Part shown: one piece after another, positions 2,564 through 13,493 of the stretch
Position numbering within the stretch: position 1 is the stretch's first letter
How the letters are laid out: each line of letters opens with the position of its first letter
DNA from: Spizellomyces punctatus DAOM BR117
Lineage: Eukaryota > Chytridiomycota > Chytridiomycetes > Spizellomycetales > Spizellomycetaceae
Direction of reading: 5' to 3'
Assembly (NCBI RefSeq): GCF_000182565.1
Contig: NW_015971549.1
Span: 124,001 to 188,000, forward strand
DNA length: 64,000 nt
The notes under the pieces: model-generated
Seen by the model: only the letters and a program-made list of their open reading frames with translations
Told to the model about the DNA's origin: nothing
Database searches by the model: none
Translations under genes and position numbers: made by a program

Positions 2564-2870
2564 GTGCGGTTTCCTGCACTGGTAATTTTCATTGTGTACA
2601 TATCTTGCTTCTGCTGGTATTCGAGAGCCATTTGTGCATGGGATAAATCGCTGTTAAAAACATGCCATATGTATAGCTTTCTGCAATCAATGATGGGGTT
2701 AACTCGGTGGATGAACTGGGACGCAGGAGATCGATCGCGGTGCGCTCCTTGACTCAGCTGAGTGAGGTCATCCGTTCCAGGGCGGTTTTGCTAGTACTTT
2801 CAATTTGAGTTTGATGGCCAAAAGACCTTTCTCAGCGATTGCAAACTACAGACTAGCTTAAACTCCAAGA

Positions 2871-3454
2871 ATGACCAGCGTCCTATCTCTCATCAACCGC
2901 CCGCTGATTGTGTCCGTCGGCATTCCCGTGGTGCTTGGGATGTCATCCGGTCTCATCACACAAAAGTCAGTTCGCGACTGGTATCCAACCATCAAAAAGC
3001 CGAGCTGGACTCCACCCAACTGGGTCTTTGGACCAGTGAGTTTCCAAAGATTTCTAGTTTATTCATTTGCAATTCTTTGTATTCATCGGGGTTTGTTACT
3101 TAGGTTTGGACTACCCTTTATGCATCAATGGGCTACGCCTCGTATTTGATTTATAAAGCCGGCGTAGAGCGGCCTTTCCTTGATACCACTGGGCCCCTTC
3201 AGCTATACGCTACCCAGCTTGCCCTCAACGTCTTGTGGACACCCCTGTTCTTTGGCGTGCATCAGCTTGGAGCAGCCAGTTTGGACATTGTAGCCTTGTT
3301 TGGCACTATTGTTGCGACTACTCGGGAGTTTGGAAAGATTGACCGTCTAGCTGGATGGCTAATGGTCCCGTATGCGGCATGGGTAGCATACGCTGGGTCT
3401 ATTACCCTGTATGTATGGTGGAATAACAAAGATACAAAGGGGAAGAAGAACTGA
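2871..3454 (+). CDS. TspO/MBR (translocator protein) family membrane protein
   Basis: Two exons, 2871-3035 and 3104-3454, joined in phase 0, give about 171 residues, the normal length for TspO/peripheral benzodiazepine receptor proteins. Five hydrophobic segments can be picked out. The family signature W-Y-x-x-L/I-K-K-P-x-W-x-P-P appears as DWYPTIKKPSWTPPNWVFGP, followed by VWTTLYASMGYASYL. Later hallmarks are the Q-L-A-L-N-x-L-W-T-P-L-F-F segment and the final MVPYAAWVAYAGSITLYVWW helix. TspO proteins sit in the outer mitochondrial membrane of animals, or in the outer membrane of bacteria, and bind porphyrins and sterols. The role in this fungus is inferred from family only. The gene lies about 300 bp upstream of RFC4 on the same strand. 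Confidence 0.93.
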
Positions 3455-3749
3455 TGCTGTAAATAAAAGATTTTCAAAACCCTATTCGATTTGGGAACAT
3501 CGTTCCCAGTTCAATTGATAGAATTTACAATCAACGGACGTTGGTGGTTTACATATTGGGCGGCAAAGAGGAGCAGGCCTTGAGCATTTCCGATTACTGT
3601 TATTCCCTCGCTGACATGTAGGTAAACAACAATGCGATATCTCTGTAGGAGTTACGAAGGTTCGCTGTGCCACCACTTGACTCATATCCGGCAATCTGGA
3701 CAATGTCGCTCGCTGTTCGCTTGCTTTCTGAACGAGATCCATTTTCACA

Positions 3750-5247
3750 ATGGCAGATTTTTTCAAACCGTCAAAATCCGGAAGGTCAAAGTCCTCTTCA
3801 AAACCCCGTGAACCTCCAATACGACCATGGATAGAAAAATATCGACCGAAGGACATGAACGACATCAGCTCCCAGGAAGAGGTAGTCGCCGTTCTAAAAA
3901 AGACATTAGAGTCGCAGAACGTGAGTATATATGATACATACTCCAAGATAGTATTCATATTGCTGATTACCTGGCTCTTTATTGCTCTAGCTGCCGCATC
4001 TTCTTTTCTATGGACCACCGGGAACTGGGAAAACTTCTACTATTTTGGCGTTGGCGAGGGAACTGTACGGGTAAGTGGGCGCCTGATGAGACGGTGTGCG
4101 GTACTAAAGGCTAATGTGAACCGGACTGTAAAGTCCAGAACTCATAAAAGACCGAGTTCTTGAACTTAATGCCTCCGATGAGCGCGGTATAGATGTCATC
4201 CGTGCCAAAGTCAAGAACTTTGCGCGAACAACAGTGAGCGGCTCGGCAAAGTATATATCGAGATCTTGGTTGTTGCCACCAGAAAATCTGTCAACTGATG
4301 GATTTTCTATTTAGTGGCTACCCCTCCCCGCCATACAAAATCATTATTCTTGATGAAGCAGATTCCATGACGCAAGACGCTCAATCCGCCCTGCGTAGAA
4401 CAATGGAAACTTATTCGAACATTACCCGATTTTGTCTCATTTGTAATTATATCAGTCGGTACGATATGGCAGTCTGCATCGATTCACAGCCCATGCATGG
4501 TGTCGCTTATCCTGTCTATCACAGTATCATTCAACCCCTGGCCTCCCGATGCGCCAAATTCCGGTTTAAGCCCCTCGATACGACATCCACCAAACAGCGC
4601 ATCGAAGAGATATGTCGCAACGAGAGTGTGAATTGTCCTCCTGAGGTATCAAGTGCATATTCATGTCCTCCTGATATGACCCGCCTAACCTGGTTTTCAT
4701 AGACGGTTGACCATCTTGTTCGAGTCTCGGAAGGCGATATGCGGCGATCCATCATGCTCCTGCAAAGCGCGTACAGATTATATCAGTCAGAACCCATAAC
4801 AAAGGATGCCATGTCTGAGATTGCTGGGGTAAATGCCTGCCTGGTTCAGAATCAAAAGATTGAGGAAATAACGCGGTAAACCGTTTCCTGCTCCTTTTAC
4901 AGGTTGTTCCGGAACCCTTAATTGACAAGCTCATGGCGGTATGGCAGTCTAAAAACATAGCTCATATTGAAAGTACGGTGAACCAAGTCATCAAAGCCGG
5001 GTATTCTGGGGCACAGTTGATGAGTCAGGTTTGTAGTAGTTCTCCTGATGCGGGTGATTGCTGTCAAAGACGGATTTTGACACTCAAATATCTCACGTAG
5101 CTCCACGATCGTGTGATATCAGACGCCCACCTCTCTTCAATTCAGAAATCAAAAATGGCACAGACCCTAGGCCAAGTGGACAAGGCCCTTGGGGACGGCG
5201 CGAGCGAGCATTTACAGTTGTTGAGGCTGCTTGTTGCTGCATATTGA
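3750..5247 (+). CDS. RFC4: Replication factor C subunit 4 (RFC4; yeast Rfc2 type) clamp-loader ATPase
   Basis: About eight exons encode roughly 340 residues, the usual size. After a short Ser/Lys-rich leader come WIEKYRPK and [15 protein letters not shown]. The second exon carries the Walker A motif [20 protein letters not shown]. The third has [22 protein letters not shown] (RFC boxes IV/sensor region). The fourth has Walker [21 protein letters not shown] and ends with [10 protein letters not shown]. Next come [17 protein letters not shown], the SRC arginine-finger motif, then [19 protein letters not shown]. The last exons encode the collar domain, ending [16 protein letters not shown] before TGA. 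The text matches animal RFC4 more closely than RFC2, RFC3 or RFC5. RFC loads PCNA onto primer-template DNA. The gene converges on the minus-strand KASH-like gene, 214 bp away. Confidence 0.93.
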
Positions 5248-5461: not shown

Positions 5462-8400
5462 TCAAGTGGGCACAATCCACTTAATCTCACCGAACAGCAT
5501 CTCATGCAACCGAATTAGGGTCCAATCGAAAATTCCGTAAGGGTGCTGTTCCATCTCGGGGTCGACCCACCATGCTGTGTAGTACATGGTGATAAGGCAC
5601 GCAATAGTCATCATTACCAGAGTTTGGAACCATGTGGTGGTAGCTGGCACTCGCGGTTTCGGTGTTGATGGCACTTGCTTCGGGCGATGACCAATTGACA
5701 ATTCGTCATCGGACCATGTGTCAGCGGGTGTGAAAGAAACCAAGGTTTGAATACTGACGGTTTTGCGCCGGGGTCGTACTGTGGTGGGCTGGGATGTATT
5801 GTGCTTCGATACTTGAAGGGTCAGTTCTGCGATAGTCGCTCGGTATTCAATGATTTGTTTTTTCAGCTCGCTGACACGTTCGGTTAGCTGGACGTTACGA
5901 CCAGTTTGTTTTTGGAGTTCTAGTAGAAAATTTTCAATGGGGAGCTCACTCCCAAACGATGGCGGGAAATCTAGTACCAACCTCTCTGTGCATCCTGTAC
6001 AGTATTCTCCGTTTGCGTCACATCCCGCTTCAGGGCCTGAATCCACCGATCTGCCTCCGCATCGTAATGTTTACGGAAGTTGAGGATGCGCCGTGTTTCC
6101 AGGACCTCGTCTTGCAGGTTTACAATATTTTCCCGAAGTCGGCGCTGTATGAAGTTACGTATTATTACACTGTACTATCACAGAGGCTAGCAATGGTTTC
6201 TTACGTTCTCTGTTTCAACGGATGTCAAAATCTCTGTGAGGCCCCTTAAACGCTCGTCTAATGAAGTTGAAAAAAGTTTTCCTTGTCAGCATGCCGCTGC
6301 ATATGCCTTGGGGTTGAATCGCATCACTAACCATCCAATTCCTCGCGCTCTCTCATCGCCTCCCGGGCTGCAAATTCCCTCTCCACCTGCTTTCTGATCG
6401 CTTTTTCCAACGCTTTAAGTCGAGCGTCCTCATCCGTTTGAACTCCCTTCCCGTAGGTTTCAACCAAGCCAACCCCAGTTTGTATGCCAATATTTTGGCT
6501 ACACACTTCTGGGTCCTCAGTCTGCAACCACTTGTTATGAACAACTGGGACGACCTGCTCCGATTGAACGCCAATTGATGTCTTCACTGCCTCCGCTTGC
6601 ACGACTTTGCTTTGCGTTTCAGTCGTTGCTACTAGACATTGCGTGCCCACTTCGCATTTCGGAACCTCATCGTGCGACCTATCAGTCTGGGTAGATGCTG
6701 AACTGATGTCTGCTGTTGTTTGCAGTCCAACGCTACAGTCCGGGCGTACCGGAAATTGCTCCATGGTTTGCACTTCCTGTTGAAGTCCAGATATCAAGCC
6801 CGAACCCGCCTGTACGGAAACCATACAGTCGGGCCGGATTGCTATCTTTCCTCCTGTTTGCACTCCTTTGTCACATGAGTCGATGATACCTGGACCCGCC
6901 TGTATACCAACGCACGCCTCATGCCGAACCACTTCATCTGTTTGCACACCCTGCACAAGTCGTTGACCCATCCCTGCCCCGAACTGCACCGATTGATCCG
7001 ACTTTGAAATCTCGTCAGTCTGTATTCCCTCGTCAGAATATCCAACACACCCAATGCCCTTCTGTGTGCCAATCGAACATTCCGGTTTCAATGAGACTGC
7101 TCCCTCGGTTTGCGTCGCCTTTGATTGCAACGCTAGCAGAAGAGCAGATTGCGATTGTAGTCCAATGGAACTACGACGTGTTCCATACATTGACGTGAGT
7201 GCCATGCCAATTGTTTGGGTAGCCTTCGCACTGGTCTGAGTTGAAAGCGTGTCAGATTGCACAGCAATTGACTGCGTCGATTTCAGCTGAGGTATATCAA
7301 TCGAAAGGACATGATCCAGTAATGGCGCTGTGGGAGATGTTTGAATTGATGCGTCCGGCGCGTGGGAAGGTTCAGTCTGGGTAGTCATATCTTGCCACTC
7401 CGTAATAACGGGGATCAACGGTAGAAAAGGTCTTTCTTGTAGCATTTCCTCCAGTTCTTCAACTGTGGGTTTGAAAGGGGATCTAGGACGTTTTGATGGC
7501 GACTTGGGCATTTTGGAGGGAGAACTGACTGGAACCCCGGAATTTGGCGAGGCAACTAAGTACGACGATAACGTAAGCTCATCCAGCAGGCATTTGACGA
7601 TGCAAACGTTGAGTTAGCTACTTACGGGTAACTACCATATGCGGCATGTTAATTAGTTTTCCCTTGGACGGCGAAAAAGTTAACGAGTCCATATCCGGAT
7701 CGGGCATCTTTAAGCGCAAGATCTTGCATTAGGCCATGCACACGCAGGGGAAACAATGGACTCAACCCACCACCATAAATCTAGCCTGATGCTTGTATTC
7801 TCTTCGTCGATGGCCCTTGCGGGATTCGTGGGAGGGGTGTGTATTCTGTAAGATATTATCAATGTAACAGTTGGACTAGGTTTTCAGGGACGCCCTCCCT
7901 TACCCCATCCTCCTGACCAGACTCTGAACCATAAGTTGAATCCGAGCACTCCATTTCCTGGTTCAATGGCTACCACCCAGCCATATGATCAGCGCCAGAC
8001 TCTATTTACACCGCCCAATTTGCATACCTTTGAAGTAGATGGCGCTTCACGAAGCATTTCCATGGTTCTCGGTGGGCGTGAACTATTGCCTAGCTCCTCT
8101 AAGTTGGCTTTGAGAGTTTCAATGGTTTCCTTTAACTCCAGATTTTCCTTTCGTAGCTCATTCATCAGATCATCAGCCTTTTCCACATCGCGTTCGAGTC
8201 TTTGTATATCATCCTCTAAACGCCCCTTGTCGTCCAATGTCTATAAAGTCAAATATATAGTGTTAACACAAGTATTCGTTGCCTCCTCCTTCAGATCATA
8301 CCCTTTGTAGGTCGCGTTCGAAATGCTGGAGGTTCGTCTCTGATGTGGCGAGTTCAGATTCCTTCCATTGCAACATATCGGCAAGTTTTTTGTTGGCAGC

Positions 8401-9834
8401 TAATGTAGCAACACCTATCGTTAACCCTTCATATATTGACTTTCCAAAATGAATTGAATACCTGTTTGCTGCTCCAGTTGATGACGCAGGTGCATGCTGT
8501 TGCTTTTTGATGCTGTCAGCTGCTTCTTTAAAGAAACTATCGAAGTTTCAAGCTGGGTAGTGATGTCAAATCAGTACCTCCGATCTCAAGACTCATCTCA
8601 CCGCAAAACTTACAGCTTCCATTTGCAGCAGCAATAACTCCTCTCTGCTCCGCACATCCCCGCACTCTTTCCTCTTGGCTGTAAGTTCGGCCTCCAACTC
8701 ATCCACTTTGCGCTGAAGCTCATGAATCTGATCATCGGCACGCCGATGAGACCTTTCCGACTCGTGAAAACGTCGTGTGATTTCAGAACATCGGCGCTTT
8801 AATGAAGATATTGTCCCGATTTGAGAAGTTATCGTGTCCTATTAATCAAGCAATTAAAGGGCGAGCCACGACCGCTTGTTGGTAATTCCCCAACCTACGT
8901 CGTCGTCTTCCTCACTGAAAGGGCTTCTGGGAGCAGAATGAAATGGGCTCCCATCTACATCAGCTTCAGAATCACTAAACAGATTCTTGCGAGGTGATGA
9001 AGACAAAGAGCTGCTAGTGTCGGAAAAAGTTGCCCTAGGGCTCCAGAACATCTCGGGGGTTCTTACGGCGCCCGCATACACGGAGTATGGCTCGTTAGCA
9101 CCATAGGTACTCATACCGCCGGCTTCAATCACTTCAAAATCTGGGCTATTGGTGTTCGAACGAGACCGAGGGGACGCTGACCCAGGGGTATGTATCTCAA
9201 ATTGGTCAAGATAATTCGGGGATTGTGTGCCTCCGGCTCGCCGAGCCGTTGGGCTGGACGTTGGACTGTGTACTGACCGTCGACGTGCCGCTTTCGCTGC
9301 TCTCTGAGCAGAGGGGAACCGTCCAGGCATGCGCACGGTTGATGGTAATGTTGGTAGTATCTGTCGTGTTGGTGGTGGTGTCGGAGTACGAAGCACTCGT
9401 GGTGGGGGTGATGGTGTCGCCATGGCTGTAGGACGCGCACGCTGAAACAGTCCCAAGAATTCCTCCGCGTCGAAACCTCTGGTCGGATCGCAGGACGCCA
9501 ATTCCTCGCATAGTTGTCGGAGACCAGACCGTTCTTTCACTGTGAAAATCTGAATACGGTGCTCATTCTCCAGATCTTCCACAAGAGGTAGTACGTTTGC
9601 GTATGGGATAAAATCGGAATTTTCGCTGTACCGTGTCCAAAGCTCTTGTGCCCGAAGGAGGAGGTATGCACTCAGAGTTGCTTCTGGCGCCGGCGTCAGG
9701 TTCTGTCAAAACGGAGGTCACTTGAAGACACATTCCAACAATATACAAAGAAAACTCACCAGTTCTGATGAAGCATCCTCTTTCCCAGCGTACGTGTCTT
9801 CAGTACTACCAGTAGACTCTAGCTCGTCCGTCAT
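5462..9834 (-). CDS. Long coiled-coil tail-anchored protein with KASH-like C terminus and Gln-Thr (LC8-type) motif array
   Basis: I join about a dozen minus-strand exons into one protein of roughly 1,200 residues. Start is ATG at 9834 (MTDELESTGS); an upstream in-frame start is only GTG. Order: a helical N-terminal segment with a DPTRGFDAEEFLGLFQRAR stretch recalling an EF-hand-like fold; a Ser/Pro-rich region with many SP/TP sites (8900-9450); coiled coil (8000-8840); the Gln-Thr array exon (6332-7555); a second coiled coil (5800-6330); a basic linker; one hydrophobic span (TLVMMTIACLITMYYTAWW); and a 37-residue tail ending WIVPT before TGA. Junction phases at about 6331, 6185 and 6010 agree, supporting one gene, although some donors are GTTAGT or GTTGGT. 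One-TM tail anchoring with terminal VPT fits KASH proteins (plant WIP/SINE end in xVPT). The 7700-7990 part probably holds small exons I could not fix. Function is inferred. Confidence 0.68.
6332..7555 (-). repeat. Array of about 25 short Gln-centred motifs (TQT/GVQTD/GIQT), LC8-binding type
   Basis: This single exon of the KASH-like gene encodes a low-complexity region with a motif roughly every 10-20 residues. I count 14 copies with QT: TTQTE, SIQTS, STQTS, KATQTI, KATQTE, GIQTD, GVQTD, KGVQTG, EVQTM, GLQTT, STQTD, WLQTE, GIQTG and KGVQTD. Eleven further sites have Q followed by S, A, K, C or F in the same setting (GLQSQ, GTQKG, GIQAG, SVQAG, GVQSE and others). Two copies begin KATQT, the same core as known dynein light chain (LC8/DYNLL) ligands; GIQ(T/V)D is the second classical LC8 form. 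Longer repeats such as RPDC-x-x-x-x-Q show local duplication. The exon ends in a charged helix leading into the second coiled coil. Confidence 0.75.
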
Positions 9835-10660: not shown

Positions 10661-12240
10661 TCACCGAACCACACCAGCCAATACTGTCACATCATCCATC
10701 TTGCCACCTTGATAGTATAATCCTTCCTGAATAGCGCGTGACTGGAAAGGGCTAGACGAAAATCGTGAATCTTCCGCAATCTCCCTCGCTCGCTTCAAAA
10801 GGGCATCCGTTATGCGCTGGGGATCAACCGATACCGCCTTCTTGTTTTGTGTAACTGAGCGAACAATGTCCACAATGTCTTCATCAAATACATTGTCAAA
10901 CATTCCATCGCTGCCGAGAATGACAATGTCTCCTTCTTCAACTTTTACTCGAAACGTTTGAGCGTCCGCCGGTGAATCGCGGCTCCCCGTACCCAGTTGG
11001 AAGGGGAAATTGAAAGAGTGTTGTTGCTCCTCCGTGCGGAAGATCGGTTCGCTGTCCCGGATGATCAAAACTCCGCAATCACCTAAATTCGCTATTCGTA
11101 ATTCATCATCCTGAAAAAATCGCCAAAAGCATGAGTTATTTCTTTTGCAAGGGCGCTCTACTTTTCAAGCAAACATACCCTTAATATTGCAATGATCGCC
11201 GTGGTCGACCCTAGCAAATTCTCTGCCTTTGCATCGAGGTTGGTATGATCATAGCTCTTCTGCAAGATATCCCTCGGATCTACATTGTTATAGTCCTCAA
11301 TGGTATAATCTGAATTCACAATGTCATCCAACTTCTCCAGCTCTGCGCTGGCATAGTGCATAATCTTTCGAGAATACAATGCTGGGTTTGCCCCTAAAAG
11401 CATGGAAAGTTAGACGGGTCAAATTTCTAATTATTTCCCCATCGTATTTCTTACCCTTCACTTGCGCCCAACCTCCGACCCCGTCTGCCACCCCTAGAGA
11501 ATCCGGACGAACAAAATACGCATCTTCTCCAACTTGGACCGATAGAAACTCCCCCGAGTCGTTTGAACACGGCCGACTCGCTCTCTTTGGCATTGCGGAC
11601 GCGGCATGTGCAAATCGAAATGTCCGACGAGTAGTTGGTATAGCCTACAGTGCGCGAGCATTAAAAAAAAAAATGGCTACTCCAAACGCTCCTGCACCAG
11701 TTTTCTGCTGGCCCATACCTTTTCAAACAGTTCAAAAATGCTCGGGCTTTCTCTCCGTTTGAACCAGTTTAGAGTATCTGGCTGAGATGCCACGGCCGGC
11801 ATAGACATGTGCCTTATGTGCTGGTGCTTGGTATAAGCCAAGTGCAGTTGCTCTGCCCCGGCGGTGTGCACCCCACAGCGAGGGGCATAGGTAGCGCAAG
11901 CGGCGGCATAGTTGAAGTTTGACGCTTCAGTGAATAGTCTATACGCTCTACGAGGCCCTTCACTGTGACTTTTCTTTCCACCTGGCGGACTTGGTGGGCG
12001 GACTATAGGGTCTGTGCATGGTTCTTGGAATGGTGGGATAAAGGCGATACGATATGGAGGGAGTGTGGGCTTGGCTGTCGAGAGGGTGTGATTGGGGAGG
12101 GGAGACTTTTCTATTGATGGTGAGGAGAATCGTCCTGAGGACACATAGAGAGGGGTCCGGACAATGTTCCGCACATAGCGGGATACTGTTTGAGCAACGA
12201 TGCGCACCGCTGAGAATGGGTTCCCTCGTGCATACAGCAT
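10661..12240 (-). CDS. PTC7: PTC7/PPTC7-type PP2C protein phosphatase, probably mitochondrial
   Basis: The C-terminal exons carry the PPM/PP2C core in the PTC7 order: GEDAYFVRPDSLGVADGVGG (metal Asp and GVGGW), an ILQKSYDHT helix, LLGSTTAIIAILR, then DDELRIANLGDCGVLIIRD and GDIVILGSDGMFDNVFDEDI with the late metal Asp, ending GGKMDDVTVLAGVVR. Exons lie at about 10661-11107, 11180-11395, 11453-11650 and a long 5' exon at about 11703-12240. The ATG at 12240 begins MLYARGNPFSAVRIVAQTVS, Arg-rich with no acidic residues, which fits a mitochondrial presequence; a longer frame to 12282 starts only with TTG. Yeast Ptc7 and human PPTC7 act in mitochondria on coenzyme Q and import proteins. The first junction, near 11650-11703, needs an unusual donor (GTGCAG), so it is uncertain. 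Confidence 0.82.
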
Positions 12241-12598
12241 AGTGCACGGGCAACGAGAGTGTGCGCAAACAGTTTGACACAAACGTCTTCACAGAAAGGC
12301 TAGCTCCAAGTATGCGTAATTGTGAAAAACGAACGTAAAATCCTGGTAATGTCCCGTTGGCGTTTTGGTGCCCTCGTCACCCCGTTCATGTGTTGGCAAA
12401 AATAGGCGATTCCAGTGATAAGCAACAAACTATTCATTTGGATCATTCGGTACGCTTGGATCTTCTGGTCACCATCGATGCCTTTGCGCAATGACTGTGC
12501 CACTGACCCACAAATCTGGATTGACTGTCGATCCGTGGTGCTGGGTATTGATTATGTAGGCAGATCATTATGACTTGCCCACAGCGTTCTCCATCGTG

Positions 12599-12631
<33 letters not shown>
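12241..12631. promoter_or_regulatory. Divergent intergenic region between PTC7 and histidine phosphatase genes
   Basis: The two genes start on opposite strands about 390 bp apart, so this stretch must carry both promoters. No clear TATA box is visible. Its plus-strand end is a GTC trinucleotide run abutting the downstream ATG. Confidence 0.4.
12595..12631 (+). repeat. GTC trinucleotide microsatellite
   Basis: About a dozen near-perfect GTC units end directly at the ATG of the histidine phosphatase gene. Read in frame they would be a poly-valine run, but the only in-frame start upstream is TTG, so the run is better taken as 5' UTR. Confidence 0.85.
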
Positions 12632-12632
<1 letters not shown>

Positions 12633-13493
12633 TGTCCCCAGCTACCTCAAACGGCCAAACGCTGTCCCCACCCATCATCCACTTGGTCCGTCATGCACAA
12701 GGATGGCACAACGTTGACGATGACAGCACCATCAAAGACCCCACGCTCACCCCCTCGGGCGAGAACCAAGCCCACACACTCGCAAGTCAGTTCCCCTACC
12801 ATGATCAGATCACGCATATTATCTGCTCCCCTATGAAGCGTACAATCCAGACCACTCTCCTGGGTTTCAAACCTGCTTTGGATAGAGGTGTTCAAGTCAC
12901 AGTTTTGCCTGAATTTCAGGAATGTGGTGATTGGCCTGCGGATACAGGAACAGATCGTTCCCTCCTGGAAAAGGAGTTTGGTCGACCTGGATGGGATTTT
13001 CGTGGCGTTGTCGATGGGTGGAATTCGAAATCTGGCAAATGGGCGTCAGATCATCCGAGTCTTGTGGCCAGAGCAAGAGAAGCACGAAGAATCCTGAAGT
13101 CCATCAAAGGCCAGCACATTGTCGTTGTGACGCATGGCGCAGTATGTACAGTACATCTCACGCTGTTGCTCAACCGAGAGTGTTTTTTTAAGAGGTGTTT
13201 CTGCCCTTTTTCAGTTTTTGCACTATCTAACCGAAGATTGGTCCGACTTCAAATCCGGTCATGGCAAGTGTTTGATACTGATTTGTTACGCTTATCCATA
13301 TTTCTCACCATTCTCACTTACAATAGGCACTGGCTATGCTAATGCTGAATATCGATCTTTTGCCTTTGTTCCGGGGACGAATGGCAATGATTCTATCGCT
13401 GAAATTGAAGAAAGTAGAATTCGTAGAACTGGAACCGAGCATGGCTTGGGTAAAGCAGAGACACGAGAATTGAAGGCTACCCATGTAATTTAG
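12632..13493 (+). CDS. Histidine phosphatase superfamily (phosphoglycerate-mutase-like, PMU1-type)
   Basis: Three exons, 12632-13141, 13215-13263 and 13327-13493, give about 240 residues. The catalytic LVRHAQGWHNVD motif near residue 17-28 is the RHG-type phosphohistidine site in its fungal VRHAxGxHN form. The second arginine is in ICSPMKRTIQT, and the second catalytic histidine in GQHIVVVTHGA. The protein then has FLHYLTEDW and GYANAEYRSF, as in fungal PMU1-like phosphatases. I chose ATG 12632 because the longer frame begins with TTG. The second intron begins GCAAGT and ends AATAG, so it appears to be a GC-AG intron; the frame closes correctly across it. The substrate is not known. Confidence 0.85.

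Follow-up and report, generated by a model that had tools for sequence, protein, structure and literature searches.

The gene and its locus

The stretch of DNA analyzed here, called the window in the following, comprises 64,000 nucleotides of the soil chytrid Spizellomyces punctatus DAOM BR117 (contig NW_015971549.1, positions 124,001 to 188,000), and all coordinates refer to it. The gene of interest is SPPG_09406, which occupies positions 5462..9834 on the minus strand and has 13 exons according to both our own model and the public protein. An EF-hand-pair-like domain, a linker, a coiled coil, a long array of Gln-centred motifs of the type bound by LC8 (the Q-T array), a second coiled coil, a single membrane span and a short tail make up its product, which we suggest to be a KASH-like protein of the outer nuclear membrane. 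An original prediction, made from the letters of the sequence, had proposed one minus-strand gene with these elements, and every one of them is indeed found there.

In our model, removal of twelve GT-AG introns of 47-74 nt joins the 13 exons into one frame of 1209 residues, and the splice phases thus fit a single reading frame at all twelve junctions, as had been stated for some of them. The public counterpart (P0001, 1208 residues) is identical at all aligned residues, and the two models diverge only where introns 4 and 6 end, the different acceptors there affecting 5 and 4 residues. Our own acceptors at these two introns were given up for the public ones because the latter are fitted by a related protein (at T.AN.KL and K.L..E.E, alignment by eye). 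With the public junctions, exon 5 is at 8399-8302 and exon 7 at 7969-7904. That all exons belong to one transcript is taken from the public gene model and from the layout of the relative.

This relative is HKX48_001105 of Thoreauomyces humboldtii (P0002, 1125 residues, E 9.4e-68). In the set of 7990 candidates that were scored, P0001 and P0002 alone reach E <= 0.001. The layouts match from the linker on, that is, in the coiled coil, the Q-T array, the second coiled coil, the membrane span and the short tail. We have also searched with individual regions. These searches need exact 5-residue words, such that distant relatives can escape, and they returned only SPPG_09406 itself, both for the N-terminal domain (131 candidates scored) and for the tail (3 candidates scored, P0002 being missed too). 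A genome search with the last exon gave no paralogue.

Against Pfam, SPPG_09406 yields 14 families up to E 10 (AAA_13, GAS and others), every one below the cut-off, and these were taken as coiled-coil noise. The database row of P0001 carries three precomputed Pfam domains, PF19220, PF24161 and PF13166.

The neighbouring genes identified with Pfam are a TspO/MBR gene at 2862-3454 (plus strand), a PP2C-type phosphatase gene at 10661-11164 (minus strand) and a histidine phosphatase gene at 12560-13342 (plus strand). By eye only, a replication factor C-like gene can be seen at about 3732-5100 (plus strand); a test of its piece 4238-4699 against Pfam gave no hit at E 0.001.

The Q-T array

The array covers residues 634-957 (6417..7388, on the minus strand like all features of the gene) and was evaluated by counting motifs against 20,000 shuffles and by analyzing the gaps between sites. 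It contains 36 Gln residues, and 12 of these are at the centre of strict [TVI]Q[TV] anchors, compared to a mean of 1.83 and a maximum of 8 in the shuffles. Loose, overlapping [TVILSA]Q[TVSAC] anchors number 25 (mean 7.0, maximum 19), TQT occurs five times (mean 0.4, maximum 6), and strict anchors followed by D, E, G, P or S occur ten times (mean 0.64). Outside the array, 2 strict anchors are found among 40 Gln. The original prediction of about 25 Gln-centred motifs thus holds for the loose anchors, which are above chance, but the strong ones are only about 12-16 (12 strict). Some of the loose anchors overlap or carry poor flanks, one example being the Trp at position −2 at Q922.

We have also applied a home-made position score, which renders the preferences given in PMC6607443 (cited, like nearly all papers below, from excerpts). 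It differs from LC8Pred and awards Ser/Ala at position −1 part of the points, which favours the relative. With this score, 16 of the 36 Gln sites in the array reach 5 or more (2.1 by shuffling), and in the array of P0002 the corresponding number is 18 of 39 (2.0).

When the loose anchors and one TQK are considered together (26 sites), 11 of the 25 gaps are 14-16 residues long, compared to 1.9 by random placement, with the bin having been picked after the gaps were seen. Two sub-types of sites can be recognized by eye, [KQE]-G-[VI]-Q-T-[DG] and a Cys-bearing P-[DEK]-C-x-[VI]-[GS]-x-Q. The array has nine cysteines, about five of which stand directly before a [VI]-[GS]-x-Q site. Cysteines are unusual for an LC8 array, and a redox or metal sensitivity is possible. 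A weaker CQS motif is used, together with VQT, in LCA5, a coiled-coil protein that is oligomerised by LC8 (PMC9481538).

The array of P0002 spans 394 residues with 39 Gln. Loose anchors were counted 25 times in it (mean 8.0), and its triads are SQT and AQT (11, mean 0.97). As judged from these counts, the Q-T array is common to both species, with its sequence turning over. The one site that is kept in position, TV-x-[IV]-Q-T, directly precedes the membrane and aligns as KTVSIQTL in SPPG_09406 (5741..5764) and TVAVQT in P0002. Repeats at the DNA level are few within the array exon (two 2-copy families), which suggests that the array is old or diverged. In P0002, residues about 672-760 consist of recent tandem repeats of 29 residues each, and the array can therefore expand by duplication separately in each lineage. 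Overall, we consider it very probable that the LC8 array is real. From the motifs, LC8 binding is predicted with good support in S. punctatus and with less support in T. humboldtii.

The genome was scanned for possible partners (24.0 Mb, 29 contigs), and it encodes an LC8 that shares 83 of 87 residues with a DYNLL2 chain of known structure, as counted by eye on the alignment. The original prediction had the motif row hold dynein at the nuclear envelope, which would mean that the LC8 at each site also sits on dynein. LC8 is a dynein subunit and is present in the genome, as this scenario demands. However, LC8 is mostly accepted as a dimerisation hub, with the binding expected from the cargo model not being observed (PMC9481538), and both of its grooves are typically taken by two copies of one client strand (PMC12017986). 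This part of the prediction is thus probably wrong, and we regard such a role of the array as very unlikely. By analogy with KASH5, dynein recruitment, if any, would more likely take place via the EF-hand pair on the dynein light intermediate chain (LIC).

Another option is that the array functions as a sink or sensor, similarly to ASCIZ, with weak, graded sites that buffer LC8 at the nuclear envelope and no rod being formed. Strong and weak sites are mixed in SPPG_09406, as they are in ASCIZ (PMC5963919). However, the position of the sites between two coiled coils and the recurring gaps of 14-16 residues favour ordered stacking, and no DNA-binding family matched SPPG_09406 in Pfam. This scenario therefore appears highly improbable.

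The N-terminal domain and the coiled coils

Residues about 31-113 (9439..9687) adopt the fold of an EF-hand pair in a structure model predicted from the single sequence. The EF-hand-like character ascribed to the N-terminus by the original prediction is consistent with this model, but the whole protein has no Pfam EF-hand match, and by eye the full calcium-ligand set is present in neither of the two loops. A sequence search of exon 2 against PDB gave no match. In separate comparisons, structures of KASH5, CRACR2A and ninein were absent among the matches listed, which excludes nothing. The binding of LIC by the EF-hand pair of KASH5 is calcium-free (PMC9242646).

The LIC gene of S. punctatus was located through five piecewise DLIC matches above the cut-off. 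The open reading frame with the 3'-most of these reads VLANFFQSLLAKKT, and this is an FF helix, the type bound by EF-hand adaptors. Against PDB it gives five matches up to E 10. Four of them, all weak (E 0.12-0.21), correspond to LIC chains or to helix-1 peptides of LIC, and the fifth is unrelated (E 1.3). Whether SPPG_09406 acts as an EF-hand-LIC dynein adaptor, by analogy to KASH5, is in our judgement evenly balanced.

The linker between the EF-hand pair and the first coiled coil is about 185 residues long. Inside this otherwise loose Ser/Pro-rich segment, the alignment with P0002 reveals the block VRMPGRFP (9313..9336), kept in both species as VRMPGR(F/W)P and a possible docking motif.

The first coiled coil follows at residues about 300-489 in the numbering of our 1209-residue model (exons 3-6, 8082..8820, edges by eye). 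It was assigned on the basis of sub-threshold coiled-coil Pfam matches and conservation, and would be ~27 nm long. Among 183 aligned residues, 94 are identical in P0002. Between this coiled coil and the array, the segment DSTYGSESGQ (7913..7942) is identical in both species and stands out in a poorly conserved stretch; its DS...S spacing resembles that of a phosphodegron or a kinase site. The second coiled coil was assigned to residues about 958-1096 (exons 10-13, 5804..6416) from sub-threshold coiled-coil Pfam matches and the gene model, also here with edges by eye.

Membrane anchoring and probable SUN docking

The transmembrane span LVMMTIACLITMYYTAWWV (5564..5620), judged by hydropathy only, is the most hydrophobic part of the protein (1.59 across 19 residues), and all three of the most hydrophobic 19-residue segments lie inside it. 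It is followed by a presumed lumenal tail of 33 residues (5465..5563), delimited by hydropathy and alignment. The tail ends in IVPT, has no cysteine, and has in common with P0002 the elements DPE, P.G, W and the penultimate Pro. The single C-terminal span and the VPT end are thus as originally predicted. A C-terminal span followed by a short tail corresponds to the KASH topology. Opisthokont KASH tails have 8-32 residues, a range exceeded here by one, and plant KASH proteins end in (V/I)PT (PMC13200780).

One genome match, above the Pfam cut-off, is a SUN protein (L003), in which an N-terminal part, a membrane span, a coiled coil and the SUN domain can be distinguished by eye. Its SUN domain, from two joined exons, matches SUN2 and SUN1 structures in PDB, the best E value being 3.6e-25 (SUN2). 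The elements T[IL]EH, [AS]SAPKDF and CIYR are kept, while the EY of SUN2 is DW here. At what we take to be the positions of the KASH pocket, L003 retains His, Ser and one of two Tyr, with Trp in place of the other. Near-identical internal repeats (QYDALEQQI...) are visible by eye in the coiled coil of L003 (471-1517, plus strand). KASH-like docking of the tail to SUN is predicted to be likely.

Taken together, we lean towards SPPG_09406 being a tail-anchored, KASH-like protein of the outer nuclear membrane that acts as a KASH5-style dynein adaptor with LC8-stapled chains. Several results weigh against this assignment. The Pfam KASH family (PF10541) is not among the 14 families obtained up to E 10, and a genome search for PF10541 gave no match over the cut-off and none at the SPPG_09406 gene. 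The C-terminus of P0002 is VNPV, such that only the penultimate Pro is conserved of the last residues, and strict anchors are not enriched in the array of P0002 (2, mean 1.25). As to a motor role, microtubules are not essential for cellularisation in S. punctatus (PMC11974727, a preprint).

We therefore use the label KASH-like only, as far as it goes, and do not regard SPPG_09406 as a member of the Pfam KASH family, since the topology, the tail length and the IVPT end fit while the profile does not, and the last residues are poorly conserved. Of the predicted KASH/LINC layout, the topology, the VPT end and the presence of a SUN gene stand, but the profile and the NPV end of the relative do not agree with it.

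The lack of a KASH profile match, the end of the relative and the fact that the tail does not end in PPPX would also be consistent with a tail-anchored coiled-coil tether of the endoplasmic reticulum, the Golgi or the mitochondrial outer membrane, for instance one that resembles a golgin or links an organelle to dynein, with LC8 as the stiffener. The IVPT end would then be coincidental; the probability of a [VI]PT end from the protein's own composition is 5.6e-4, which is small but refers to a pattern chosen post hoc. However, the tail keeps the elements shared with P0002, its 33 residues exceed the typical tail-anchor stubs, and a canonical SUN protein is present in the genome. We thus find a location at one of these other membranes rather unlikely.

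Proposed mechanism

Starting from what is read from the sequence, namely the gene, the layout, the array, the span and the tail, we infer SUN docking, LC8 clipping and LIC binding as the steps by which the KASH-like protein would function. The lumenal IVPT tail would dock in the KASH pocket of the L003 SUN domain and thereby anchor SPPG_09406 at the outer nuclear membrane. The two coiled coils would align parallel chains, and LC8 dimers would clip these chains at a large part of the Q-T sites in between, such that a stretch of about 320 residues, presumably disordered by itself, would become a stiff rod. At full extension, the 324 residues of the array correspond to ~110 nm (at 0.34 nm per residue). 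A stiff rod is what LC8 makes of Nup159 (PMC12017986).

An alternative to the rod is that LC8 cross-links neighbouring LINC complexes, which is conceivable because SUN-KASH units are trimeric and LC8 is dimeric. Human SUN2 forms trimers with KASH (PMC13200780), which leaves both modes open, and trimers of 53BP1 are bridged by LC8 (PMC12187134). At the cytoplasmic end, the EF-hand pair and the first coiled coil would bind the LIC helix in a KASH5-like manner, and dynein or the centrosome would thereby be held at the far end of a long spacer.

Nuclei of S. punctatus migrate and keep their attachment to centrosomes (preprint PMC11974727); the words dynein, KASH and LINC do not occur in the main text of that source. 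Nucleus-centrosome attachment and nuclear migration are put forward as the likeliest job of SPPG_09406, tentatively and with a probability on the lower side of even. More speculative still is the complete picture, in which the chytrid nucleus-centriole LINC arm would be an LC8-stapled rod of ~100 nm with between one and two dozen LC8 dimers and an EF-hand dynein-adaptor head, and in which the stiffness or cross-linking of this tether would be set by LC8 occupancy. Such an LC8 arm on any KASH protein was not found in the literature among the matches listed, whose titles and abstract starts concern neither a KASH protein with an LC8 array nor one from a chytrid. The text of a 2025 KASH review (PMC12581424) is likewise free of the terms LC8 and DYNLL.

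If the proposal is true, it would give a molecular identity to the physical link between nucleus and centrosome that has been inferred in Spizellomyces (PMC11974727, preprint). LC8 would then serve a LINC complex as a structural stiffener, the predicted strict sites numbering 12 compared to the 11 known in ASCIZ, and more when weak sites are counted. It would also mean that a KASH5-like EF-hand layout exists outside animals, which to our knowledge has not been described; our literature search found no paper combining all its terms. Since S. punctatus can be transformed, the tether idea is directly testable.

Relation to known proteins

KASH5 (CCDC155), the EF-hand-pair dynein adaptor of animal meiosis, resembles SPPG_09406 in having an EF-hand pair, a coiled coil, a span and a short lumenal tail in this order, and the LIC helix that would have to be bound exists in the S. 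punctatus genome. The likeness is one of layout, and SPPG_09406 differs in matching neither the KASH nor the EF-hand families of Pfam, in adding the LC8 array and a second coiled coil, and in ending in IVPT instead of PPPX. The plant WIP/SINE KASH proteins have a cytoplasmic layout that is different from that of SPPG_09406. The similarity to these lies in the (V/I)PT end and the cysteine-free tail, which however has 33 residues here compared to 9-13 in plants (PMC13200780).

Among fungi, Kms1 and Kms2 of fission yeast form LINC complexes with Sad1 at the spindle pole body, which is a microtubule-organising centre; here the comparison is by description, and the excerpt of PMC8015250 makes no mention of an LC8 array.

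As to the array, ASCIZ/ATMIN also has numerous LC8 sites of mixed strength, and the 11 sites of human ASCIZ were the most of any partner as of 2018 (PMC5963919). It is, however, a transcription factor and not membrane-bound. Nup159, in turn, is a nuclear pore protein without a membrane span. The rod that it forms with Dyn2, the yeast LC8, is similar to the arrangement proposed here in that a row of LC8 sites adjoins a coiled coil and the protein belongs to the nuclear-envelope region (PMC12017986), with 5 sites in Nup159 compared to 12 strict or 25 loose ones in SPPG_09406.
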